64,000 bases of DNA from positions 2,976,001-3,040,000 of the forward strand of contig NZ_CP017661.1 of NCBI RefSeq assembly GCF_016805985.1, in the 5' to 3' direction. The DNA is from Microbacterium sp. JZ31. GTDB taxonomy: Bacteria > Actinomycetota > Actinomycetes > Actinomycetales > Microbacteriaceae. The position numbers were made by a program, and so were the translations under genes. The notes under the pieces are model-generated. The model saw nothing but the letters and a program-made list of their open reading frames with translations, did no database searches and was not told the origin of the DNA. Below are positions 1 through 63,356 of the stretch, one piece after another (position 1 is the stretch's first letter; every line of letters starts with the position of its first letter).

Positions 1-470
1 ACTCCGGCGTCAACAGGAAGATCCGCGAGGTCGTGAAGACCTCCCTGCTGGATCTGCTCAGCGAGCAGTCATCGCTGTCGCACCCGTCGATGGTCGACAT
101 CTGGAAGGACATCTGCGCGAGCTGCGATCTCGGCATCGGCACGCTCGCGACGCTCGCCGCTTCGCAGCTGCCCGGCCAGCATCAGCGCCTGCGGAAGATG
201 ATGGGAGAGCGCGTGAAGCGCATCACGATCAAGCCCTTCATGGACATCAACACGATGATCGAGGAGCGGCTGACGCAGTGCTGCGTGCATGTCGCGACCG
301 TGAACGAGACCACCGACGCGCACCAGTGCGCACCGTTCTGCGCGGTGCAGGCGTGGGCGCCGCTGGGCCGGACCCGGCTGTCGACCGCCACCGGATCGCG
401 AGAGCCCGCCGAACGCCTCGGCGACGTCCGCGCGACCGGCGGTCGCACGGCGCTGCCGGTGATCGCATGA
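1..470 (+). CDS. Radical SAM protein, Tes/MJ0619-like, C-terminal part (5' end outside window)
   Basis: Only the last ~156 codons are present. The reading frame is open from base 3 and the true start lies upstream. The visible part has a conserved stretch (GERVKRITIKPFMDIN) followed by a Cys-rich tail: QCCVHVAT, then HQCAPFCAVQAW. This resembles the C-terminal region of the MJ0619 group of radical SAM enzymes, whose archaeal member Tes couples lipid tails to make membrane-spanning tetraethers. Substrate and the CxxxCxxC cluster cannot be checked because the N-terminus is missing. The stop overlaps the next ATG (ATGA), and an Lgt-like gene follows, so a lipid-modifying role is plausible. Family assignment is from memory of motifs, not from a search. 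Confidence 0.6.
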   Translation, partial: SGVNRKIREVVKTSLLDLLSEQSSLSHPSMVDIWKDICASCDLGIGTLATLAASQLPGQHQRLRKMMGERVKRITIKPFMDINTMIEERLTQCCVHVATVNETTDAHQCAPFCAVQAWAPLGRTRLSTATGSREPAERLGDVRATGGRTALPVIA

Positions 471-784
471 CATCGGCCCACGAGGGGCTCAACCGGTACG
501 ACCCTCGGGTCGGCGACCCGACCCCGGCGTTCGATCCGCTCAAGCTGTGCGTCTTCACGACGGTCGCGCTCATCACGTGCGTGCTCGGCCCCGTCGCGCT
601 GCTGGCGTTCAGCGGCGTGGCGATCGCCGGCTACGTGCGGGCGCGGCGCGCGGGGCTGCTGCGGTCGAAGTGCCGGCTCGGCGACACGCGACTGGTGCTG
701 CTGTACCTGTCGGTGATCGCGCTGCTCGCGACCGCGGCGATCCCATTCTGGGTGATGCTCTGGATCCGGATCCTGGCGGGCTGA
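467..784 (+). CDS. Small membrane protein in the radical SAM/Lgt-like operon
   Basis: A 105-residue protein whose ATG overlaps the upstream TGA, so it is probably translationally coupled. Residues ~24-53 and ~72-100 form two or three hydrophobic segments separated by a short basic, Cys-containing loop (RARRAGLLRSKCRLGD). There is no recognisable enzymatic motif. Its stop is one base before the GTG of the Lgt-like gene, which argues for a partner or scaffold role in the same membrane pathway. I do not recognise the family. Frame choice is supported by hydrophobicity and by the tight coupling on both sides. Confidence 0.7.
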   Translation: MTSAHEGLNRYDPRVGDPTPAFDPLKLCVFTTVALITCVLGPVALLAFSGVAIAGYVRARRAGLLRSKCRLGDTRLVLLYLSVIALLATAAIPFWVMLWIRILAG

Positions 785-785
785 C

Positions 786-1607
786 GTGTTCCCGACACTG
801 CAGGACCTCGCGGCCTGGCTGCCGCCGTTCGACACGCACTCGGCGTTCGTCGCCCTCGGCCTGCTCGCGGCGGGGGTCGTGTTCCTCGTCGAGAAGCGCC
901 GCCGCGGCGTGACCGACTACCGCGTCTGGTACCTCGTGCTCGGCGCCCTGGCGGGCGCGGCCCTCCTGGCGCGCCTGGGGACCTGGGCCCAGCACCTCGA
1001 TCCGACGCAGAACCTGAGCCTGGTCGAGCAGCTGTCGTACGGCAACGCGTCCATGCTGTCGGCGCTGGTCGGCGCGTGGCTCGGCGTGCACGTCGCGAAG
1101 CGCATCGTGCGGTACCCGCATCGCACCGGCGACCTGTTCGCCCCGGCGGTCGCGCTCGCGATGGCGATCGGCCGGATCGGATGCCTGCTCACCGAGAAGC
1201 CCGGCACGCCGACCGGCTCCGGCTGGGGCGTCGTCCTCGACGCCGATGCCGCGGCGTACACGGGCGGCCCGGCCGGCGTGCCGCTGCATCCGAGCTTCGT
1301 CTACGAGATCGCCTTCCATGCCGCGGCGTTCGCGCTGCTGTGGTTCTGGCTGCGGCGGCGCGACATCGCGCCGGGCGAGACGCTGACGCTGTACATCGCC
1401 GCGTACGGCACCTTCCGCTTCCTCGTGGAGTTCGTGCGCGGCAACGAGATCGCCTGGCTGGGACTCACGCGCCCGCAGCTGTTCCTGCTGGTGACGATGC
1501 CCCTCCTGTTCGCCCGGATCGCCTGGATGATCCGCACCGGGCGCTTCCACGCCCCCGCCCCCGCGCTCACGTCGGAGAGGACGACCGCACATGAACAGCA
1601 CGCCTGA
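786..1607 (+). CDS. Divergent prolipoprotein diacylglyceryl transferase (Lgt) family protein
   Basis: A 273-residue polytopic membrane protein starting with GTG. Lgt-like signatures are present: GRIGC at 129-133 (canonical Lgt has GR-x-G-N), HPSFVYE at 168-174, and a late R/E/R set in FRFLVEFVRGNE (R211, E215, R218). In canonical Lgt these regions bind phosphatidylglycerol and move a diacylglyceryl group to a lipobox Cys. The GRxGN asparagine is replaced by Cys133, so this is probably a specialised paralogue rather than the housekeeping enzyme. It follows the Tes-like radical SAM gene and a small membrane protein with almost no spacing, suggesting modification or transfer of a lipid tail. Substrate unknown. 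Confidence 0.75.
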   Translation: MFPTLQDLAAWLPPFDTHSAFVALGLLAAGVVFLVEKRRRGVTDYRVWYLVLGALAGAALLARLGTWAQHLDPTQNLSLVEQLSYGNASMLSALVGAWLGVHVAKRIVRYPHRTGDLFAPAVALAMAIGRIGCLLTEKPGTPTGSGWGVVLDADAAAYTGGPAGVPLHPSFVYEIAFHAAAFALLWFWLRRRDIAPGETLTLYIAAYGTFRFLVEFVRGNEIAWLGLTRPQLFLLVTMPLLFARIAWMIRTGRFHAPAPALTSERTTAHEQHA

Positions 1608-2145
1608 GCAGCCTGGGCAGGAGCCGGAGCACTCCGAGCCGCAGCCCGAGCGTCCCGCGCCGCAGGCGCCGCAGCCGCCCCAGCCGCCGCAGCCGTACCC
1701 GGAGCAGCCGCCGCACCCGCAGCAGCCGCCCCAGCCGTACCCGCAGCAGCCGCCGCACCCGCAGCAGCCGTACCTTCCGCCCGGGACGACGCCTCCGGGG
1801 GCGACGCCGGGACCGCAGCCGCAACCCTACGGTGCGCCGCCCGCGCCCCCGCGGCAGCTCGGCGGGCTGAAGTTCGGCACATGGGTCGGCATCGGCGTCC
1901 TCGGCGGTGTCGTGCTGTCGGTCGGCTCGTTCCTGCTGGGCATCTTCGTGGTGAGCGGCCCGTTCGGCATCGGCCAGCTCAGCTGGGCGCCGTGGATCCT
2001 GGTGGGCCTGGCGGGCGTCGTCCTGATCTTCTTCCCTCGCACGCGCGGGCTGGCCACGGGGCTGCTGATCAGCGTCGCCGCGGCGCCGATCGTGCTGATC
2101 GGCGTCTGCTTCGTCGTGATCGCGGCGCCCCCGCTGATGATGTAG
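1591..2145 (+). CDS. Proline-rich membrane protein
   Basis: A 184-residue protein whose ATG lies inside the end of the Lgt-like gene (17-base overlap). Residues ~8-85 are extremely rich in Pro, Gln and Tyr with repeats of the type PQPPQPYP and PPHPQQP. Three hydrophobic segments follow at ~98-120, ~127-148 and ~155-180, with a very short exposed C-terminus. Such Pro/Gln-rich cytoplasmic tails are common in actinobacterial membrane proteins of unknown role and may mediate protein contacts. Fourth gene of the left-edge operon. It is convergent with ligB, leaving only 16 bases between the stops. Confidence 0.75.
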   Translation: MNSTPEQPGQEPEHSEPQPERPAPQAPQPPQPPQPYPEQPPHPQQPPQPYPQQPPHPQQPYLPPGTTPPGATPGPQPQPYGAPPAPPRQLGGLKFGTWVGIGVLGGVVLSVGSFLLGIFVVSGPFGIGQLSWAPWILVGLAGVVLIFFPRTRGLATGLLISVAAAPIVLIGVCFVVIAAPPLMM

Positions 2146-7010: not shown

Positions 7011-8307
7011 GCGCGCGTTCCGCTCCGTCCGCGCGCGGACCACGCTGGGCGCCACGATCGTGGTCGCGGTCGCTCTGATCCTGGGCGCCGTGACGTTCTT
7101 CCTCGTGCTGCGCGACAGCGTGCTGTCCTCGGTCGAGGGCACCGCGCAGACGCGCGCCCAGCAGCTCGCGGACGCCGTGAACGAGGGCGGCCTCGGCGTG
7201 ATCGCGGCCCTGGACGACGAGCTCGTGCAGGTCGTCGACGACGCCGGCACGATCCTGGCGACCGCCGACGAGGTGGCCGAGGTGAGGCTGCCGCCCGTCC
7301 GCGAGCCGACGATCGCCGACGTGGACGGGGAACCGGTCCTGCTGGTCTCCGAGGACGCAGGGGACGACCCCAGCGTGGTCGTCGGTGTGGCGATCGACGA
7401 CCAGCTGGAGACGCTGTCGACGGTCACGGTCCTGCTCGGCGTCGCGGTCCCGCTCGTCGCGATCCTCGTCGCGGTGACCACCTGGGTCGTGAGCGGGCGA
7501 GCGCTGTGGCCGGTCACCCGGATCCGCCGGGAGGTCGATGACATCACGGCCGAGCGGCTGGATCGGCGCGTGCCCGTGCCGGGTACGGGCGACGAGATCG
7601 CGGCGCTCGCGGTGACCATGAACGGGATGCTCGACCGGCTCGACCGATCCGCGCGGGCGCAGCGGGCGTTCGTGTCCGACGCGTCGCACGAGCTGCGCTC
7701 CCCGCTCGCGACGATGCGGCAGCACGCCGAGATCGCCCTGGCACACCCGCAGAGCACCTCGGTGGAGGAGCTCGCCGAGGTCGTGCACGAGGAGGGACTG
7801 CGCCTGCAGGGCATCGTCGACGCGCTGCTGCTGCTGGCGCGGCTCGGGGAGGGCGCGCACGAGGCGACCGAGGCGGTCGACCTCGACGATCTCGCCCTCG
7901 CCGAGGTCGCGCGGCTGCGGGCGCAGGGCCTGCAGGTCGACGCCGCCGGCATCGGCGCGGCGCGGGCGGCGGGCAGCGCGCGGCTGTTCGGTCAGCTGCT
8001 GCGGAACCTCTGCGACAACGCGGCCCGGCATGCGCGCGGCCGCGTCGCGATCGCGACCCGCGCGCAGGGCGGTCGCGTCATCCTGAGCGTCGAGGACGAC
8101 GGGACGGGCGTCCCGCCGGCCGAGCGCGAGCGCATCTTCGAGCGCTTCGTCCGCCTCGACGAAGCCCGCGCACGGGACGCCGGCGGCAGCGGACTGGGCC
8201 TCGCGATCGTCGGCGGCATCGCCGACGCCGCCGGCGGCTCCGTGTCGGTGGATGAGTCGCGGTGGGGCGGCGCGCGCTTCACGATCACGCTGCCCGCGGC
8301 ATCCTGA
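7000..8307 (+). CDS. Sensor histidine kinase
   Basis: 435 residues. TM1 ~18-37, an extracytoplasmic sensor of ~100 residues with strongly acidic patches (LDDELVQVVDDAG, SEDAGDDP), TM2 ~142-165, then HAMP ~166-218. Dimerisation/phosphoacceptor box SDASHELRSPLATMR has His230. The ATPase domain has N box NLCDNAARHA (N340), G1 EDDGTG (~366-371) and G2 GGSGLGLAI (~395-403). It phosphorylates the response regulator encoded just upstream. The acidic sensor loop might sense cations or cationic peptides; that is inference. Its stop lies 56 bases before the PepSY-like gene, separated by the CTTCAG operator. Confidence 0.95.
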   Translation: MAARRAFRSVRARTTLGATIVVAVALILGAVTFFLVLRDSVLSSVEGTAQTRAQQLADAVNEGGLGVIAALDDELVQVVDDAGTILATADEVAEVRLPPVREPTIADVDGEPVLLVSEDAGDDPSVVVGVAIDDQLETLSTVTVLLGVAVPLVAILVAVTTWVVSGRALWPVTRIRREVDDITAERLDRRVPVPGTGDEIAALAVTMNGMLDRLDRSARAQRAFVSDASHELRSPLATMRQHAEIALAHPQSTSVEELAEVVHEEGLRLQGIVDALLLLARLGEGAHEATEAVDLDDLALAEVARLRAQGLQVDAAGIGAARAAGSARLFGQLLRNLCDNAARHARGRVAIATRAQGGRVILSVEDDGTGVPPAERERIFERFVRLDEARARDAGGSGLGLAIVGGIADAAGGSVSVDESRWGGARFTITLPAAS

Positions 8308-8313
8308 AGACGC

Positions 8314-8340
8314 CTTCAGCACGCTTCAGGGCCGCTTCAG
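8314..8340 (+). promoter_or_regulatory. Triple CTTCAG operator upstream of the PepSY-like gene
   Basis: CTTCAG occurs at 8314-8319, 8324-8329 and 8335-8340, spaced 10 and 11 bases apart. A reverse copy CTGAAG at 8304-8309 overlaps the kinase stop. With the two copies before the response regulator this gives five direct copies in exactly the two promoter positions of the locus. Predicted binding site of the response regulator encoded at 6333-7010. Confidence 0.65.
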
Positions 8341-8363
8341 CACCCGCGCGACACGATCGGCAC

Positions 8364-9182
8364 ATGAGCGATAACGACACGAACAACCCGCAGCCCATCC
8401 CCGCCGAGCCGCAGCAGCCCACGGCCGCCGAACCGCAGCACCCCGCGGCCGCCGAGCCCGCGCAGGAGAGCGCGCCGAAGCCGCGCCGCCGGCGCGGTCT
8501 CCTGATCGCGGGCGGCGTGGTGGCCGCCGCTCTGCTCGTCGGAGGCGGTGTCGCGGCCGGCGCCGCACTCGAGGACGCGGATGACGACGACCGCGCCGAA
8601 GCGTCTTCGCAGCAGGCGGCGGGCTCCGACGACGCGGACTCGGACGACGCATCGGACGGCGCATCGGACGACTCCGGCTCGGACGGCTCAGGAACCGACG
8701 ACTCCGCGACCGACGACGCGTCAAACGACTCCGGCAGCGACGACTCCGGAACCGGCACCGCCGCGGCGCGCGGCAGCGACTCGGCCGAGGAGATCACCGC
8801 GATCGCGGACGCGGCCTCCGGGGCCGCGGAGGGCGACGTGGTCGACATCGACGCCAAGCGCGACGGCTCGTGGGAGGTCAAGCTCGAGACCGCGGGCGGC
8901 GACGAGAGCGAGGTGCGCGTCGCGTCCGACGGAAGCACGCGCGTCATCGAGACCGAGAACGCCGGATCCGACGATCGCGGCCCCGAGAACGTCCTCGACG
9001 CCGACACCATCGCCGCGCTCGTGGATGCGGCACTGGCCGACACGGCCGGCACGATCCTCGAGCTCGACAGCGGCGACGGCTCGACGCCCTACGACGTCAC
9101 CGTCCTCGCAACCGACGGCACCACGGTCGAGCTGGAGCTCGGCGCGGACTTCACGATCACCGCCCGCGACACCGACGACTGA
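8364..9182 (+). CDS. Membrane-anchored acidic protein with PepSY-like repeats
   Basis: 272 residues. A cytoplasmic Pro/Gln/Ala-rich head (1-~38), a basic stop (PKPRRRR), one TM (~44-68), then a long low-complexity Asp/Ser/Gly linker (~70-130). Two PepSY-like units follow: EEITAIADAASGAAEGDVVD...WEVKLETAGGDESEVRV, and LDADTIAALVDAALADTAGTI...PYDVTV. PepSY modules bind or inhibit peptidases or sense peptides outside the cell. It is the last gene of the two-component locus with its own CTTCAG operator, so it is the likely direct target and perhaps a feedback partner of the kinase. The ATG at 8364 was chosen because upstream in-frame sequence crosses the operator. Confidence 0.8.
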   Translation: MSDNDTNNPQPIPAEPQQPTAAEPQHPAAAEPAQESAPKPRRRRGLLIAGGVVAAALLVGGGVAAGAALEDADDDDRAEASSQQAAGSDDADSDDASDGASDDSGSDGSGTDDSATDDASNDSGSDDSGTGTAAARGSDSAEEITAIADAASGAAEGDVVDIDAKRDGSWEVKLETAGGDESEVRVASDGSTRVIETENAGSDDRGPENVLDADTIAALVDAALADTAGTILELDSGDGSTPYDVTVLATDGTTVELELGADFTITARDTDD

Positions 9183-9204
9183 CGCACTCCGAACGCCCGA
9201 CGCC

Positions 9205-9236
9205 GAGAGCCCCGCATGCCGTGCGGGGCTCTCTTG
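9205..9236. terminator. Bidirectional intrinsic terminator
   Basis: A perfect 12-bp stem, GAGAGCCCCGCA (9205-9216) with TGCGGGGCTCTC (9222-9233), closed by a 5-base loop and followed by TT. It lies between the PepSY-like gene (+) and the convergent SdpI-like gene (-), so it can serve both. Confidence 0.8.
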
Positions 9237-9241
9237 CGCCG

Positions 9242-9604
9242 TCAGCGCTCGTCGTTGGCCCTCGCGGCACGGGCTCCGACGGCCGCGCCCCGCAGCGCGA
9301 ACGCGAGCATCGCGATCGCACCGACGAGCACCGAGATGATCACCACCGGAAGCGGCACCGGAAGCAGTGCGGGAACGGCGCTGGCGATCGCGCACCATCC
9401 GGCGATCTCCGTCAGACGCTTGGCAGCCCGGTGCGCGGCGAGCCATGCCGCGTCGCTCGACATCGTCACGGGGAGGCGGATTCCCGCGACGTGATTGCGC
9501 TGCAGCCGGCCGTCGGCGGCGGCGCGTGCCATCCACAGCATCAGGGCACCGCAACCCCACATCGCCACGAGGAGGACCACCCGGGCGACGAGTTCCTGCT
9601 GCAT
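9242..9604 (-). CDS. SdpI/YhfL-family membrane protein
   Basis: 120 residues with three hydrophobic segments (~8-26, ~63-83, ~86-106). The stretch GRLQRNHVAGIRLPVTMSS between TM1 and TM2 matches the SdpI-family signature (N-x-x-x-G-I-R-x-x-x-T). SdpI gives Bacillus immunity to the SdpC toxin; most actinobacterial members are of unknown function. A non-immunity role is likely because no toxin gene is nearby. The two genes behind it on the same strand (GNAT, CNNM) look independently placed, with ~60-base gaps. Confidence 0.8.
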   Translation of the reverse strand: MQQELVARVVLLVAMWGCGALMLWMARAAADGRLQRNHVAGIRLPVTMSSDAAWLAAHRAAKRLTEIAGWCAIASAVPALLPVPLPVVIISVLVGAIAMLAFALRGAAVGARAARANDER

Positions 9605-9663
9605 GCCCCCAGGCTAACGAGGGCCCTCGACGCGGACGCGACGACGTGGGCGCCGCGTTCGCC

Positions 9664-10164
9664 TCAGTCGCGGCGGCGCCGCTCGATCAGCACGGTGTCA
9701 CGCCACTCACCCGCGCGCGGACCGAGCTGCGCCTGCGCGATCCGCTCTCGGCGCCCCACTTCCCGGAAGCCGGCCGCTTCGTGCAGCCGCAGGCTCGCAA
9801 CGTTCTCGGGGAAGATCGACGACTGGATCGTCCAGAACCCGGCCTCATCGGCCGCCTCGACGAACGCTTCGAGCAGGATGCGCCCGACACCTCGCCCGCG
9901 GGCCTCGGCGGCGATGTAGATCGAGTGCTCGATCACGCCCCGGTAGACCGCGCGGACCGAGACCTGCGATGCGGCTGCCCACCCCAGGATGCGATCCGTC
10001 TCGTCCACGGCGACCAGGCGCGGCTTGGGTAGCCTCCCCGCGTCGAACGCCTTCCACGACGGCGGCTCCGTCTCGAACGTCGCCTCGCCGGTGTCGATCC
10101 CCTCCCGGTAGATCCGCTCGACGATCGGCCAGTCCGCGGTGGTCATCAAACGGGTCCGGATCAT
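9664..10164 (-). CDS. GNAT N-acetyltransferase (phosphinothricin/methionine-sulfone type)
   Basis: 166 residues. The family signature is present: TTADWPIVERIYREGIDTGEATFET at the N-terminus (given here only as a landmark), then SVYIAAEARGRGVGRILLEA-like acetyl-CoA loop (EARGRGVG). The C-terminal part is SSIFPENVASLRLHEAAGFREVG. This is the Pat/MnaT subgroup, which acetylates phosphinothricin, methionine sulfone or related amino acids. I used the ATG at 10164 because it directly precedes the conserved start; upstream ATGs at 10173 and 10206 are possible but add basic residues not seen in the family. Confidence 0.85.
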   Translation of the reverse strand: MIRTRLMTTADWPIVERIYREGIDTGEATFETEPPSWKAFDAGRLPKPRLVAVDETDRILGWAAASQVSVRAVYRGVIEHSIYIAAEARGRGVGRILLEAFVEAADEAGFWTIQSSIFPENVASLRLHEAAGFREVGRRERIAQAQLGPRAGEWRDTVLIERRRRD

Positions 10165-13926: not shown

Positions 13927-14904
13927 TCAGGGACGGAGGAGGATCTTGCCCACGCGGCCCGGCGCGAAGTTGGCGCGGGCGGCCCCGGCGATCTCCGCCA
14001 GCGGGTAGACGGCCTCCACCGGAAGCGTGATCGTCCCGTCGGCGAGGCGCGCGAAGAGCTCGCCCATAAGACGGTTGCGGTCCTCCGCACTCGTCGCGGC
14101 GCTCACCTTGCTGCCCCAGAATCCGCGCACGGTCGCCTGCTTGAAGATCACGTCGCCCGAGTCGATCTCCATCGTCGGCGACGCCATCGCCCCGAACGCC
14201 ACGAGCGTGCCGTTCTCGGCGAGCTGCGACAGCACGTCGCCGCTGGCGCGCCCTCCGACCGAGTCGACACCCACCGAGATCGGCGCCCCACCGGTGATCT
14301 CGGCGACGCGCTGCTGCCATCCCTCGGAGTCCGTGGCGACGATGCGGCCGATGCCCTGCGCCTCGAGCTCCGCGATGCCGTCGACGCGTCGCACGAGACC
14401 GACGACGTTGACGCCGCGGCCCACCGCGAGCTGCGCGACGAGGCGCCCGACGGCGCCGTTGGCGGCGTTCTGCAGCAGCCAGTCGCCCTCCGCGAGGTCC
14501 AGCGAGTCGAGCAGGCTGATCGCCGAGAAGGGCATGGCCACGAGCTGCGCCGCGACCTCGTCGCTCATCCCCTCGGGAACGGGGATGAGCGTGCCGGCCT
14601 TGGCGACGAACTGCTCGGCCCAGACACCGAACGTCCCGCCGGCGACGACGCGCTGGCCGACCTGCAGGTGATCCACGCCCTCGCCGAGCGCCTCGATCAC
14701 GCCGACGGCCTCCGTGCCGGCGCGCGCGGGCAGCTCGGGCTTGAACCCGTACGTGCCGCGGACCGTCCAGAGGTCGTGGTTGTGGATCGCGGCGAGCACG
14801 AGGCGCACGCGGGCCTCCCCCGGTCCCGGCTCCGGAGTCGCGACGTCCTCGACGGCGAGGACCTCCGCCGGGTCGCCGAATGCGTGATGAATGAGTGCCT
14901 TCAT
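13927..14904 (-). CDS. Zinc-independent quinone oxidoreductase-like medium-chain dehydrogenase
   Basis: 325 residues of the QOR/MECR branch. The N-terminal GroES-like fold has PGPGEARVRL and HNHDLWTVRGTYG, with no catalytic zinc Cys. The NADPH site is NAANGAVGRLVAQLA, followed by GVDSVGGRASGDVLSQL and GKILLRP at the C-terminus. It reduces quinones, enones or enoyl thioesters with NADPH. It has its own terminator hairpin. Its ATG at 14904 is preceded on the minus strand by GAAGGAAGG. LysR-type regulator and MFS genes lie upstream, but the 193-base gap to the LysR gene argues for a separate unit. Confidence 0.88.
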   Translation of the reverse strand: MKALIHHAFGDPAEVLAVEDVATPEPGPGEARVRLVLAAIHNHDLWTVRGTYGFKPELPARAGTEAVGVIEALGEGVDHLQVGQRVVAGGTFGVWAEQFVAKAGTLIPVPEGMSDEVAAQLVAMPFSAISLLDSLDLAEGDWLLQNAANGAVGRLVAQLAVGRGVNVVGLVRRVDGIAELEAQGIGRIVATDSEGWQQRVAEITGGAPISVGVDSVGGRASGDVLSQLAENGTLVAFGAMASPTMEIDSGDVIFKQATVRGFWGSKVSAATSAEDRNRLMGELFARLADGTITLPVEAVYPLAEIAGAARANFAPGRVGKILLRP

Positions 14905-28183: not shown

Positions 28184-28789
28184 ATGGCACACCAGAACAT
28201 CGACAGGGGCGACCGGTACGCGAGCTGGTTCACCGCGGGCATCGCCGCGGTCGCCGGCGTGTGGATCGTGGTGCAGGCGGGCATCCGGATCGCCGAGGTG
28301 CTGCACGGGACGGATGTGCCCGTGCTGGCACCGTTCTCGGGTGAGCAGACGGTGCTGCCGATCGGCCCGGGCGGATCGGACGTGACGGTGACCGTCGATC
28401 AGGCGGTGATCGCGGCGAACAGCCTGGCGCCCATCACCTCGGTCTCACTCGTGCTCGAGGCGATCGTCGGCGCGCTCGGGTTGCTCGGGGCGCTCGTGTG
28501 CCTGGTGCTGCTGTGCATCAACCTGGCCCGCGGTGTGGCCTTCAGCCGGCTGAACAGCCGCCTGATCCTGCTCGGTACGACCTCGCTGCTCGTCGCGTGG
28601 GCCCTGGGCGGGCTTTTCCGCACGATGGGCGTCAACGGCACCTTCGCCGCCGTGAGCGAGCACTCATACGACAACGTGATCTTCTCCTCCGATCTCGGAC
28701 CGCTCTTCGCCATCCTCGCGCTCGGCGCGATCGGCACAGCCTTCACCGTCGGCGAGCGCCTGCAGCGGGACACCGAGGGCCTGGTGTGA
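28184..28789 (+). CDS. DUF2975-like membrane protein, paralogue 1
   Basis: 201 residues, four TM segments (~16-35, ~88-112, ~124-146, ~168-190). An extracytoplasmic loop of ~50 residues lies between TM1 and TM2. It ends in the signature VGERLQRDTEGLV, shared with the next two genes; DUF2975 proteins of Firmicutes end in a comparable LKEDxDLTV. Such proteins are regularly encoded with a YozG-like XRE regulator, as here. Function unknown. First gene of a four-gene operon; its stop overlaps the next ATG by one base (TGATG). Confidence 0.8.
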   Translation: MAHQNIDRGDRYASWFTAGIAAVAGVWIVVQAGIRIAEVLHGTDVPVLAPFSGEQTVLPIGPGGSDVTVTVDQAVIAANSLAPITSVSLVLEAIVGALGLLGALVCLVLLCINLARGVAFSRLNSRLILLGTTSLLVAWALGGLFRTMGVNGTFAAVSEHSYDNVIFSSDLGPLFAILALGAIGTAFTVGERLQRDTEGLV

Positions 28790-29415
28790 TGACGAGCCCT
28801 CAACCCGCGCGTCCCGAGCTGTTCGCGCAGAGCGACCGCTGGTCCTTCATTCTCCTGGTCCCTCTGTCCGCAATCATCGCGGTGGTGATCGTGATGGAGA
28901 CCGCGCAGCGGCTGGCCGCCGTGATCCCGAACGCGGACATCCCGATCGAGCTTCCGCTGGCGCCCGATGCCGCGGCGCTGGACCTCACGGCGGAGGGCGT
29001 CGCCGTCACCGCCTGGTCGGATCGGGCGACGGTGCTGCTGAGCGATGTGCCGGGCGGCGTGCACGCGGCGCTGATCGCGGCACCGCTCATCCACGGCGCG
29101 GCGATGCTCGTGGCGCTCGCGACCGCGGCCCTGTTCACCCTGAACCTCGCACGGGGCATCGCCTTCGACGTGCGCAACACGAGGCTGATCGCGATCTCCG
29201 GAGCGGCGCTGGCACTCGACCTCGCCGCGCGCTTCCCTGTCGACCTCATCGTCACGAACCATGCCCGCGCGGCGCTGGATCAGGATGTGTTCGGCGGGAC
29301 GGCGACGGACTCGGGCTTCTTCCTGAGCCTGTTCCTGGTGTTCGTAATCAGCGCGGTCGCGGTCGCCTTCGCCGCGGGCGCCCGACTGCAGAAGGACACG
29401 GAGGGACTCGTATGA
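28789..29415 (+). CDS. DUF2975-like membrane protein, paralogue 2
   Basis: 208 residues, same four-TM plan as paralogue 1: TM1 ~20-42, a ~60-residue loop, then GAAMLVALATAALFTLNLARGIAFD matching the first protein's ALVCLVLLCINLARGVAFS region. C-terminus AGARLQKDTEGLV. The match between NLARG-(V/I)-AF motifs places both in one family. Stop and next ATG overlap (ATGA at 29412-29415), so translation is coupled. No enzymatic residues are apparent. Confidence 0.8.
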   Translation: MTSPQPARPELFAQSDRWSFILLVPLSAIIAVVIVMETAQRLAAVIPNADIPIELPLAPDAAALDLTAEGVAVTAWSDRATVLLSDVPGGVHAALIAAPLIHGAAMLVALATAALFTLNLARGIAFDVRNTRLIAISGAALALDLAARFPVDLIVTNHARAALDQDVFGGTATDSGFFLSLFLVFVISAVAVAFAAGARLQKDTEGLV

Positions 29416-30137
29416 GCGCGGGAGGTAAAGACCCCCTGGTGGCGCTGCTGTGGCTGGCGGCCTTCGTCGCGGGCCTCGCGGTGATCGTGGGGATCGTGAT
29501 GTGGCGCGGACGCCGGAAGGGAAGCCGCACGATCGCTCTCGACGCGGCGTTGACCGTCGCCGGGGCATGGCTGTTCCTCGCGGTGGTCGTCGCCGGGGCG
29601 CAGCTCATCCAGACGCTCACGAGCGTCGAGCTCACCCTCACCGACGCCCCCGTCATCTGGACCGCGGCCGAGCCCCTGACGTGCACTCACCCCGACGACC
29701 TCCCGGACGCGCCGACGGTGACGTGCGCGTCGACATCCGGAGCGGATGTCACGATCGCGAACCTCAGCATGGGTGCGCGTCTCCTGCTGGCATCGGCCCA
29801 GCTGCTGACCGCCGTCCTCGGAGCGCTTCCCGCCGCGCTGCTCGCCACGATCGCGGCTGCGGCGCTGCGCGGCGCCGCCTTCAGCCGGAGCGTGGTCCGC
29901 GCGCTCTACATCGGCGCGGGCGTCGTCCTGGTCGCGGGGATCGGTGCGGGCGTGCTGCAGGCGCTGGCCGTGTCGGCCGCACTGGGCGAGGCGCTGCCGG
30001 CGCACGGCATCGAGCCCTCCTTCTTCCGGGTCACGATCGAGCCCCTGATCTTCGTCTCCGCGCTGGCGCTGGGGGCGCTCGGTTCGGTGTTCCAGCACGG
30101 CACGGCGCTGCAGCGCGACACCGAGGGCCTGGTGTGA
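29412..30137 (+). CDS. DUF2975-like membrane protein, paralogue 3
   Basis: 241 residues, the longest of the three. TM1 ~12-33, an added TM (~47-70), a loop with two Cys (LTCTHPDDL, VTCAST) that may form a disulfide outside, then the family core (LLASAQLLTAVLGALPAALLATIAAAALRGAAFS). It ends in GTALQRDTEGLV. It retains the signature tail but has drifted most in the NLARG region (here ALRGAAFS). Stop overlaps the GTG of the XRE gene (GTGA). Confidence 0.78.
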   Translation: MSAGGKDPLVALLWLAAFVAGLAVIVGIVMWRGRRKGSRTIALDAALTVAGAWLFLAVVVAGAQLIQTLTSVELTLTDAPVIWTAAEPLTCTHPDDLPDAPTVTCASTSGADVTIANLSMGARLLLASAQLLTAVLGALPAALLATIAAAALRGAAFSRSVVRALYIGAGVVLVAGIGAGVLQALAVSAALGEALPAHGIEPSFFRVTIEPLIFVSALALGALGSVFQHGTALQRDTEGLV

Positions 30138-61520: not shown

Positions 61521-62251
61521 GCGAGCAGACCCGAGCGGGCGACCCCCGAACCACGACCCAGGCGGCGGGGGCGAGGCCCGCACGGCGCACACCTGCAACC
61601 TGGATCCGCGTCGCGGCGGGCAGTCTGCCCGCCACCTGGGTGACGGTCGCCGCCACGGGCGCGTTCCTCGGCGCGACCGTGGCCTTCGGCGGACTCGCGG
61701 ACGCACCGGCCGCCGAACCCGAGCCGCTGCCCGTGCACGCGCCGGGCGACACGCACACGAACGAGCAGTTCGACATCCGTGTCGATCGGGCGGTGCTGAT
61801 CGACGAGCTGCCGGGGTCGGGCACGTTCCCTGTGGCGGGCGAGCGCGTGCTCGCCGTCACGGCGACCATGACCAACATCACCGACGAGCCGCTGCTCAGC
61901 ACCCAGTTCGCCGGCGAGACGTTCGTGGCGGAGGCCCTGCCCGACGAACGTGCGGGCGGCGGCGGGCCCGTCACACCGTCGGTCGCCCGCCTCGACGACG
62001 CGACGACGAACCCGTACCTGCAGCCCGACGTGCCGGTCGAGGTCGTCGTCACGTGGCCCGTTCCCGCCGACCTGCTGCGCGAGGGCGACTCGCTGCGCGT
62101 GACGCTGTCGGACTACGAGCGATACGACTTCGAACGCCTGGGTGGATCGGAGGACGACCACGTCTGGACGGACCCGCGTCCGGCGGCGTACGTCGACCTG
62201 CCGATCGAGGACGTGGGTGCCGGTGCGGATCAGGAAGAGGGCAGCGGATGA
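61517..62251 (+). CDS. Membrane-anchored protein of the 61-63 kb cassette, first
   Basis: 244 residues. Polar head (1-~30), one TM (~36-58, SLPATWVTVAATGAFLGATVAF). The extracytoplasmic domain starts PLPVHAPGDTHTNEQFDIRVDRAVLIDELPGSG and contains ERVLAVTATMTNITDEPLL, typical of DUF4352-like Ig folds in exported proteins. No Cys. ATG coupled to the DUF1990 stop and TGA coupled to the next gene. Function unknown. Confidence 0.8.
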   Translation: MSEQTRAGDPRTTTQAAGARPARRTPATWIRVAAGSLPATWVTVAATGAFLGATVAFGGLADAPAAEPEPLPVHAPGDTHTNEQFDIRVDRAVLIDELPGSGTFPVAGERVLAVTATMTNITDEPLLSTQFAGETFVAEALPDERAGGGGPVTPSVARLDDATTNPYLQPDVPVEVVVTWPVPADLLREGDSLRVTLSDYERYDFERLGGSEDDHVWTDPRPAAYVDLPIEDVGAGADQEEGSG

Positions 62252-62856
62252 GCCCGCTGAGTCGCACGCGCCTGCATTCGGCGGGGCGCTGGGCCGTCGG
62301 CATCGGGCTCGTCGCCGCCGCATGGGTGGTCGCGGCGCTCGCACCCGACTCCGACTTCGCCAAGCAGGAGTTCCCGGTGGCGGCGTCCGTCGGGGAGCTC
62401 GCGCAGGGTCGCAACCTGCAGCTCACGGTGCTCGACGTCGCGGGCGCGTCGGAGCTCTCCGACGCGCACGGCTGGCGCGGTGACGGTCCCTGGCTGCTCG
62501 TGACGTTCGAGGCCGAGGCCATGTTCGAGGAGACCGGCGCCTCGCTGGCGCGGATGGACCTGCGCATCCCCGACGGCGAGGGGGGCGACCGCACCTACCG
62601 CGCGAGTGAGCGCCCGAACTTGGCGGCGGCGCCGCGCGAGCGTCTCTCGATCGGTCTGCCGAGCACCGCGACCGCGGCCTTCGAGCTCCCGGCGGACGCA
62701 CTGGAGGACTCCGAGGCGAATCGCCGCGCGGTCGTCGAGTTCGGATTCGACGCCGTGAACCGGCAGCTGGACTCGGTCATCCGACTCGACGTCGACCTCA
62801 CGGCGCTGCCGTTCGACGCGCCCGCCGACATCGCGGATCGGGCGTGGTCGCGATGA
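62248..62856 (+). CDS. Membrane-anchored protein of the 61-63 kb cassette, second
   Basis: 202 residues. N-terminal TM (~14-32, AVGIGLVAAAWVVAALAP), then an exported beta-rich domain with LTVLDVAGASELSDAHGWRGDGPWLLVTFEAEAMFEETGASL. The phrase W-L-(V/L)-V-T-F-E-A parallels the V-L-A-V-T-A-T-M segment of the first protein, suggesting two versions of one fold. No Cys, no catalytic motif. Overlaps both neighbours by 4 bases. Confidence 0.78.
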   Translation: MSPLSRTRLHSAGRWAVGIGLVAAAWVVAALAPDSDFAKQEFPVAASVGELAQGRNLQLTVLDVAGASELSDAHGWRGDGPWLLVTFEAEAMFEETGASLARMDLRIPDGEGGDRTYRASERPNLAAAPRERLSIGLPSTATAAFELPADALEDSEANRRAVVEFGFDAVNRQLDSVIRLDVDLTALPFDAPADIADRAWSR

Positions 62857-63356
62857 AATGGTGGCGACGGAACGCCCTCGCGCTGGCGGCGCTCGCGCTC
62901 CTCATCCCGGGAGCGGTGGTCGTGATCGGAGGGCAGGAGTGGATCACCTACTACGGCTTCCGCCCCATCTCTCCGATCGACGTCCGCGAGGGCGAGAGCG
63001 CGGACTTCGCCGGCGCGACCTTCGGCCCCGCACGCGTGTCCGACGGCACCGCGACGCAGCGCGAGAGGATCCCGAATGGCGCGAGGATCCTCGTGGCCGA
63101 GATCCCCGTGCAGCCCGGCGCGGAGTCGCCCGGCTGCACGGTCACCCTCCGGGAGACGACGGGACAGCGGCGCCACTGGGAGGTCCAGCCGAACGCCCTC
63201 GACCGGACGGGGCATGTCTCCTGCACGACGGAGAACTCCGGGCGCTACGTCGTCGAGGCGCCGTTCCTCGTGCCCGCGGATGCGACGGGGCCGTTCGCGA
63301 TCGAGCTGGTCGTCGCAGGGCAGCAACCGCGGTTCCTTCGGCTCATCGCGCCGTGA
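62853..63356 (+). CDS. Membrane-anchored protein of the 61-63 kb cassette, third
   Basis: 167 residues. KWWRRNALALAALALLIPGAVVVIGG gives a TM near the N-terminus; the outer domain has VREGESADFAGATFGPARVSD, ILVAEIPVQPG and two Cys (SPGCTVTL, HVSCTTEN) that may pair. It ends RFLRLIAP. It could be a third, shorter member of the same Ig-like fold. Start at the ATG at 62853, overlapping the previous stop; the upstream in-frame GTG at 62844 is less likely. It overlaps the convergent gene by 14 bases. Confidence 0.76.
   Translation: MKWWRRNALALAALALLIPGAVVVIGGQEWITYYGFRPISPIDVREGESADFAGATFGPARVSDGTATQRERIPNGARILVAEIPVQPGAESPGCTVTLRETTGQRRHWEVQPNALDRTGHVSCTTENSGRYVVEAPFLVPADATGPFAIELVVAGQQPRFLRLIAP

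Follow-up and report, generated by a model that had tools for sequence, protein, structure and literature searches.

A four-gene cassette of Microbacterium sp. JZ31 encodes a radical S-adenosylmethionine (SAM) enzyme akin to the archaeal tetraether synthase Tes, a divergent paralogue of the diacylglyceryl transferase Lgt and two small membrane proteins, one of which carries near its C-terminus a helix ending in a nearly invariant Gly-x-Cys. We refer to these proteins as rSAM, Lgt2, TM1 and Pro, respectively. The explanation that we favour, to which we would assign a probability of roughly 0.4, is that Lgt2 lipidates the cysteine of Pro and that rSAM acts by radical chemistry on lipid tails. 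The existence of the unit, the families to which its enzymes belong, the residue changes within them and the G-x-C helix can all be read from the sequences. The cassette was found at the start of a window of 64,000 nucleotides (contig NZ_CP017661.1, positions 2,976,001 to 3,040,000 of the forward strand), taken from a genome assembled as one contig of 3.19 Mb.

All four genes lie on the + strand, in the order rSAM, TM1, Lgt2, Pro, and are overlapping or one base apart. The Tes-like radical SAM gene starts 1140 bases before the window and reaches into it only with its 3' end (1..470); the complete gene (L009:14860-16470, equivalent to C1:2974860-2976470) encodes 536 amino acids from a start codon picked by conservation, with an alternative upstream start possible at 14830. 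TM1 (467..784), a membrane protein of 105 amino acids, begins in an ATGA overlap with the end of rSAM. Lgt2 (786..1607) follows after a gap of one base, and Pro (1591..2145), a proline-rich small membrane protein, overlaps the end of Lgt2 by 17 bp. This is the layout given in the initial annotation of the window, and the coordinates bear it out. Downstream of Pro is a gene that we read as ligase-like, on the opposite strand.

rSAM was the only query with which the examined loci were collected. A 396-genome sample of the phylum gave 11 of them, from 10 genomes, and the best 80 of at least 500 relatives (named loci of genome contigs) were added, so that the two sets may share species. Lgt2 is encoded on the same strand within 2.5 kb of rSAM in 87 of these 91 loci, the other four being cut by contig ends; TM1 is present in 80, and any other gene cluster is seen in 13 at most. 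Among 198 genomes of Microbacterium, rSAM occurs in 28 and Lgt2 in 27, all 27 being shared (hypergeometric P 2e-32). The Lgt2 calls in this genus score at least 209 bits, with the next best at 101, and the single genome with rSAM only is an assembly of 540 contigs that is 76% complete. The small proteins were searched for in 24 cassette-positive genomes (of 28) and 26 cassette-negative ones (of 170); TM1 was found in 24/24 of the former and 0/26 of the latter, and Pro in 23/24 and 0/26, apart from one borderline match (E 8e-4). A match to rSAM at 1e-30 exists in 22 of the 396 genomes of the phylum sample. In 10 of these the match is close (at least 57% identity), and these 10 are also the genomes that have an Lgt2 above 250 bits; the 12 with only a distant relative of rSAM have none. 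Distances between rSAM proteins follow those between their Lgt2 partners (r 0.85 over 46 loci; none of 999 permutations reached this value), as joint inheritance would lead one to expect. The linkage, the co-occurrence in Microbacterium and the match within the phylum sample rule out chance neighbours, and it is near certain that the four genes form one unit. A survey of neighbourhood conservation had been proposed in the initial annotation, and the association is indeed conserved.

Once the sequence upstream of the window is included, rSAM has the CX3CX2C motif (CNLRCPTC) for which the initial annotation had proposed to look. The only solved structure matched by the full protein is that of the tetraether synthase MJ0619, also termed GDGT-MAS (PDB 7tol; E 2.2e-37, residues 12-500 of the 542 searched), so the homology is nearly full length. 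Positions of the MJ0619 ligands were taken from PMC9433317, and the rSAM alignment comprises 56 of the 84 proteins called. The cysteines of the CX3CX2C motif (C119, C123 and C126) are kept in 56/56 rows, as are C51 and H54 of a rubredoxin-like Cys/Cys/Cys/His site, whose C16 and C19 are present in 54/56 with two gaps. Residues C338, C455, C456 and C470 of MJ0619 are Cys in 16/16 rows compared, and C338, C474, C475 and C494 of rSAM, at the place of the C-terminal auxiliary cluster, are invariant in 56/56. The SAM-contact residues F106, R210, Q268 and R275 of MJ0619 are kept in the family rows, and Ser271 is replaced by Phe in the 16-row comparison. Four extra cysteines (C109, C333, C422 and C490) are invariant over the 56 rows and a fifth, C419, is found in 55; together they may form a second auxiliary cluster. 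C419, C422, C474, C475, C490 and C494 are encoded within the window. An AlphaFold2 model of rSAM is of moderate confidence (mean pLDDT, the predicted local distance difference test score, 67.6; pTM, the predicted template modelling score, 0.71).

The curated models for TrsS (NF045646) and Tes (NF045702) match 56/56 of the rSAM members scanned. For the protein of the window TrsS is the best, yet its 196 bits are far under the cut-off of 490, and the Tes model gives 157 bits against a cut-off of 450. These matches and that to 7tol rule out an unrelated SPASM family. The initial annotation had named the enzyme Tes/MJ0619-like, and of this name the kinship stands while identity with Tes proper does not: unlike Tes, the cassette enzyme is bacterial and linked to Lgt2, has the extra cysteines, lacks the ligands of the N-terminal cluster as well as Met439 and Tyr459 of MJ0619, and scores far under the cut-offs. 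By its sequence it is therefore Tes-like, not Tes proper.

More distant Tes-like relatives in the phylum sample, at ~26-38% identity, form an outer ring around the cassette enzymes, and their C73, C77 and C80, the ligands of the N-terminal cluster, are kept in 12/12 rows, one of which comes from a genome (G253) that also bears the cassette. At five loci (L047, L048 and L050-L052) a Tes-like enzyme with the N-terminal cluster cysteines kept is followed by a class I methyltransferase whose N-terminus carries a CC motif, as judged by eye; we take this methyltransferase to be TrsM-like. Some irregular copies of rSAM were also seen. In one genome (G162) the rSAM frame contains an in-frame GC-rich insert of short repeats (L044 ~8040-9840, equal to L158 2017-3819), translated as repeats of DDLARTRGRGSRGPERVVPGGSGG, which looks like a repeat element within the gene. 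In two single-contig assemblies of the Microbacterium group (G576 and G580; L152 and L153), rSAM is split over three and two frames, respectively, and Lgt2 and TM1 match in one piece despite the frameshifted rSAM; sequencing indels or early decay may be responsible.

Lgt2 is a member of the Lgt family (Pfam LGT, PF01790; 93.9 bits, cut-off 24.9) and the copy in the window is under every equivalog cut-off shown, with 51.8 bits for TIGR00544 against a cut-off of 118.9. A canonical Lgt is encoded elsewhere in the genome (1486070-1486810; 227 bits vs 94 for Lgt2), which rules out Lgt2 as the housekeeping enzyme, in agreement with the initial annotation. Comparison with Lgt of Escherichia coli (5azb and 5azc) was made using 61 of 71 Lgt2 proteins. 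Six residues of the catalytic network, R143, E151, Y235, R239, E243 and R246 in E. coli, are kept in 61/61 rows (R130, E137, Y207, R211, E215 and R218 in the window), whereas three other positions differ. Y26 has become His in 60/61 rows with one gap (window H18, codon 837-839), H103 has become Leu in 60/61 with one Ile (window L91), and N146 is Cys in 61/61 (window C133, codon 1182-1184); this last change gives GRIGC instead of the canonical GRxGN, the substitution to which the initial annotation had already drawn attention. G154 lies in a gapped stretch of the alignment. Y26, N146 and G154 are reported to be required in E. coli Lgt. In passages of PMC4728403, Y26 is bonded to the sn-2 ester of phosphatidylglycerol, R143 and R239 are essential for transfer, and the lipobox peptide is placed, as a proposal, at the H103-GGL segment. 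Lgt2 would thus be an Lgt with the catalytic network kept and the acceptor site altered.

The individual changes vary in their value as markers. N146C alone is not diagnostic because Lgt of Leptospira interrogans carries it as well and partly works in E. coli (PMC13251419). Loss of H103 was considered as a diagnostic mark of Lgt2 and dropped, since the residue varies outside Proteobacteria (PMC13251419) and is Phe in the canonical Lgt of the source genome itself. The pair Y26H and N146C recurs in MSMEG_5408, the second Lgt homologue of Mycobacterium smegmatis, for which a low Lgt activity is presumed (PMC13251419); the likeness is one of these two residues. One could suppose from the kept catalytic arginines, and from the partial function of the Leptospira enzyme, that Lgt2 is a redundant but ordinary prolipoprotein diacylglyceryl transferase next to an unrelated rSAM by chance. 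This is very improbable given its near-perfect linkage and co-occurrence with rSAM, TM1 and Pro, its score far below the equivalog cut-off and the low activity presumed for MSMEG_5408. A cassette locus that we took as mycobacterial (L038) is near enolase and Ppx-like genes, as judged by eye. MSMEG_5408 presumably has the same neighbours and may be an orthologue of the Lgt2 of L038. Lgt-like proteins of intermediate score (141-147 bits, in four genomes of one family) were considered as Lgt2 and taken as ordinary Lgt; the three examined (G094, G202 and G360) adjoin an RluD-like gene and two of them also an lspA-like gene, by eye.

The most telling feature of the cassette, overlooked in the initial annotation, is Pro. 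Its last helix has basic residues before it, is predicted to run from inside to outside and ends in G-x-C shortly before the C-terminus. In the window the Gly-Val-Cys codons (residues 171-173) occupy 2101..2109 on the + strand, at the predicted outer end of the helix and 11 residues before the C-terminus, and this cysteine is the proposed lipid acceptor. A profile search, in which the two best hits per locus were considered, recovered Pro-like proteins in 78/91 loci. G-x-C is present in 76 of the 78, and the other two have A-A-C (L097) and E-V-C (L118); profile hits without the cysteine in L090, L094, L095, L098, L111 and L113, each beside a G-x-C hit in the same locus, were left out. The sequence of Pro is otherwise variable. 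Mean column identity is 25% over the last 78 residues of a 48-row alignment (48 of 79 thinned tails), and the only invariant columns are the Gly and Cys of G-x-C, by which these rows had been chosen. Among 85 copies, which were likewise G-x-C copies only, R or K is found at -28 to -15 before the Cys in 85/85, the tail after the Cys is 5-19 residues long with no basic residue in 67/85, and median hydropathy of the helix is 1.96. The basic start and the non-basic tail therefore predict, by hydropathy, that the cysteine is at the outer face.

A pattern made up of a helix with a basic start, [GA]xC and a tail of 4-22 residues matched 89 times on the cassette strand, in 79/91 loci, and had no match in open frames either of the opposite strand at cassette loci (473,294 codons) or outside the cassette (1,000,418 codons). 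It also caught proteins missed by the profile in L043, L044, L101 and L105, which share the helix, the G-x-C and the short tail and, as judged by eye, have just one helix. Profile and pattern combined find a G-x-C protein in 82/91 loci, and five of the remaining nine end at or soon after the cassette genes (L069, L070, L085, L093 and L115). For comparison, G-x-C occurs in 3/107 flanking proteins with a hydrophobic C-terminal helix, one of which (L044) is itself cassette-borne; this control leaves out genes overlapping known cassette genes, and with unclustered Pro copies included the count is 32/141. A regular cassette partner with a G-x-C tail is thus a new element of this system. Pro resembles lipobox lipoproteins in its basic start, its hydrophobic helix and a Gly followed by Cys at the predicted outer face, and differs from them in having one residue between the Gly and the Cys and the Cys near the C-terminus. 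A helix of this kind, beside an Lgt paralogue in which the peptide-binding segment appears altered, is most readily understood as that paralogue's acceptor, and from its position and conservation we lean slightly towards the view that Lgt2 acts on Pro.

TM1 is less informative. Residues C27 and C68 (numbered on the first row of the alignment, which starts one residue after the Met) are invariant in 43/43 aligned sequences, the alignment using 43 of 51 proteins. Neither the TM1 nor the Pro of the window matches a Pfam family at 0.1, and weak matches in other members agree on no family, being shared by at most 4/43 TM1 and at most 4/48 Pro. The two cysteines are near the predicted inner face, in a topology judged by eye, and TM1 may dock or serve rSAM.

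The favoured explanation would work as follows. Lgt2 would take a phosphatidylglycerol-type donor and move its diacylglyceryl, or a related lipid, onto the Cys of the Pro G-x-C, where the last helix reaches the outer face. This helix would stand in the membrane in the manner of a lipoprotein signal peptide, its lipobox being displaced by one residue and close to the C-terminus, and because of that displacement the usual signal peptidase step is unlikely. On the cytosolic side rSAM, with TM1 as its membrane partner in most lineages, would abstract hydrogen from acyl tails and so modify or couple them, be it in the donor lipid or in the lipid that Pro bears. From the homology of rSAM we see an even chance that it acts on lipid tails; the order of the steps and the final product we infer. 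A more specific version, in which Lgt2 lipidates the C-terminal G-x-Cys and rSAM couples the acyl tails of the anchor to each other or to a lipid of the opposite leaflet, possibly giving a membrane-spanning anchor, is unlikely.

The initial annotation had placed the cassette in the modification or cross-linking of membrane lipid tails, and Pro suggests lipidation of a dedicated membrane protein no less than synthesis of a free membrane lipid. In the latter case the product would be a free membrane-spanning, macrocyclic or tail-modified lipid, Lgt2 would move a diacylglyceryl group onto some small acceptor, with TM1 and Pro as structural or redox subunits. The homology of rSAM to Tes, the two invariant cysteines of TM1 and the finding that MJ0619 binds two phospholipids, which are ordinary bacterial ones (PMC9433317), all speak for this possibility. 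It leaves unexplained why G-x-Cys should be the most constant part of a variable protein, at the outer end of a helix and beside an Lgt paralogue, and we consider it rather unlikely. To our knowledge, none of these genera is known for such a lipid.

Alternatively, the substrate of rSAM could be a peptide. TM1 or Pro would then receive a thioether or another modification of a C-H bond and Lgt2 would lipidate the same protein, in a pathway like those of ribosomally synthesized and post-translationally modified peptides. Small Cys-bearing proteins are indeed co-encoded with this radical SAM enzyme, and there is a weak likeness to peptide maturases, with the mycofactocin, AlbA and StsB models matching 3, 3 and 2 of 56 members at 1e-10. 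The TrsS and Tes models match every member with far better E-values, however, the tail of Pro past the Cys is short and not conserved, and the Cys is predicted to be across the membrane from a cytosolic enzyme, so a peptide substrate is quite unlikely. Distinctly improbable, too, are a donor and an acceptor of another kind than phospholipid and protein, such as a quinone, a glycolipid or a cell-wall precursor, with the cysteines serving metal or disulfide chemistry. Such a scheme would accommodate the invariant Cys133 in the core of Lgt2, the invariant cysteines of its partners and the frequent position of the next-closest rSAM relatives in the phylum sample beside class I methyltransferases, at the five loci described above. 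No gene for a pathway of this kind recurs in the neighbourhood, and the short-tailed G-x-C, predicted at the outer leaflet, would fit lipidation best.

Lipidation of Pro by Lgt2, with radical chemistry on lipid tails by rSAM, has to be weighed against a number of unfavourable observations. In the enzyme, C73, C77 and C80 are found in 0/16 cassette rows, Met439 of MJ0619 is Lys in 56/56 (Lys458, codon 231-233), Tyr459 is Val in 55 and Ala in one, and the TrsS model scores above that of Tes. Passages of PMC9433317 describe Met439 and Tyr459 as completely conserved in 1000 archaeal homologues, and variants of both as still active in vitro. In Lgt2, the change of H103 argues only weakly for a new acceptor, as the canonical Lgt of the genome is without this His too. 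As for Pro, a strict lipobox ([LVI][ASTVI][GAS]C) is found within the last 45 residues of only 1/85 copies; the tail pattern was defined after the family had been seen, and its control frames are mostly non-coding. When the Cys of the pattern is swapped for other residues, matches inside the cassette are still obtained (Ala 65, Val 58, compared with 0 to 9 outside), so Cys is a rare residue that leads the list and is not unique. Pro was not found in L041, L042, L045 and L046, which come from three genomes of one family of metagenome-assembled genomes (MAGs). TM1 was not found in 11/91 loci and is therefore not universal: three of these are at contig ends (L046, L093 and L115) and eight are not, namely L038-L040, taken as mycobacterial, L106-L108, three of the four Janibacter loci, L104 and L119. 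Finally, movement of lipid would be needed, with no obvious gene for it, because Tes-like chemistry is cytosolic and that of Lgt extracytoplasmic.

The initial annotation had framed the pathway as one of Microbacteriaceae. The cassette is not special to that family; judged by the sequences it is a cassette of the Actinomycetota and moves horizontally. On the rSAM tree the enzyme of the source genome is placed with Microbacterium, and it shares 95% identity with the Microbacterium paludicola protein (L057). Elsewhere on the tree Tersicoccus and Psychromicrobium fall inside a Microbacterium-Leucobacter clade, Arthrobacter, Sinomonas and Micropruina are joined by a genome of the Microbacterium group (G343), and the Nocardioides sequences include one from a MAG that carries the label Mycobacterium. 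Variants of gene order in which the rSAM and Lgt2 ends are swapped represent one change on this tree (clade support 100/99), with the genes still together. Lgt2, two small membrane proteins and rSAM are also side by side on plasmid pS2b of Mycobacterium avium (L137, 4222-7542) and on a plasmid of M. branderi (L138, 4352-7545), with the small proteins between Lgt2 and rSAM. Both small proteins of each plasmid have a terminal helix with A-G-I-C, A-G-Y-C, G-G-L-C or V-G-V-C, and no TM1 was recognised among the annotated neighbours, where no search aimed at TM1 was made. The tree placements and the plasmid-borne copies make this a transferable unit. Transposase genes were seen near the plasmid cassettes, and a scan of viral contigs gave three pattern matches and no relative.

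Two further observations concern the surroundings of the cassette. Upstream of the window, at L009 ~8100-8760, repeated DNA with the translations ERSEESKR and VERRAQRGVET is present at the end of an aminomethyltransferase-like frame and resembles a family of intergenic repeats. Within the window, 28184-30137 and 61640-63356 hold two tandem triplets of small exported or membrane proteins of ~170-230 amino acids, seemingly alike in layout.

We found no description of the association between rSAM and Lgt2 in the titles, abstract beginnings or passages of the open-licence literature searched, and a search on MSMEG_5407, MSMEG_5409, MSMEG_5410 and MSMEG_5411 returned nothing. Bacterial Tes homologues, 456 in number, have been listed, and a role in membrane-spanning lipids hypothesised for them without a test in that work (Zeng et al., PMC8941075). 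A paper of 2026 (PMC13274423) deals with membrane-spanning lipids of bacteria and attributes the coupling step to Mss, and the available passages of PMC11186832 contain nothing on Actinobacteria.

If our explanation is true, these bacteria would have a second route of lipidation beside the classic lipoprotein pathway, and radical lipid chemistry of the Tes type would take place in ordinary soil bacteria. It would also suggest a function for the odd second Lgt that some actinobacteria have and that has so far been taken as a weak Lgt. As the cassette offers a small candidate acceptor and is sharply present or absent within one genus, these ideas are testable.

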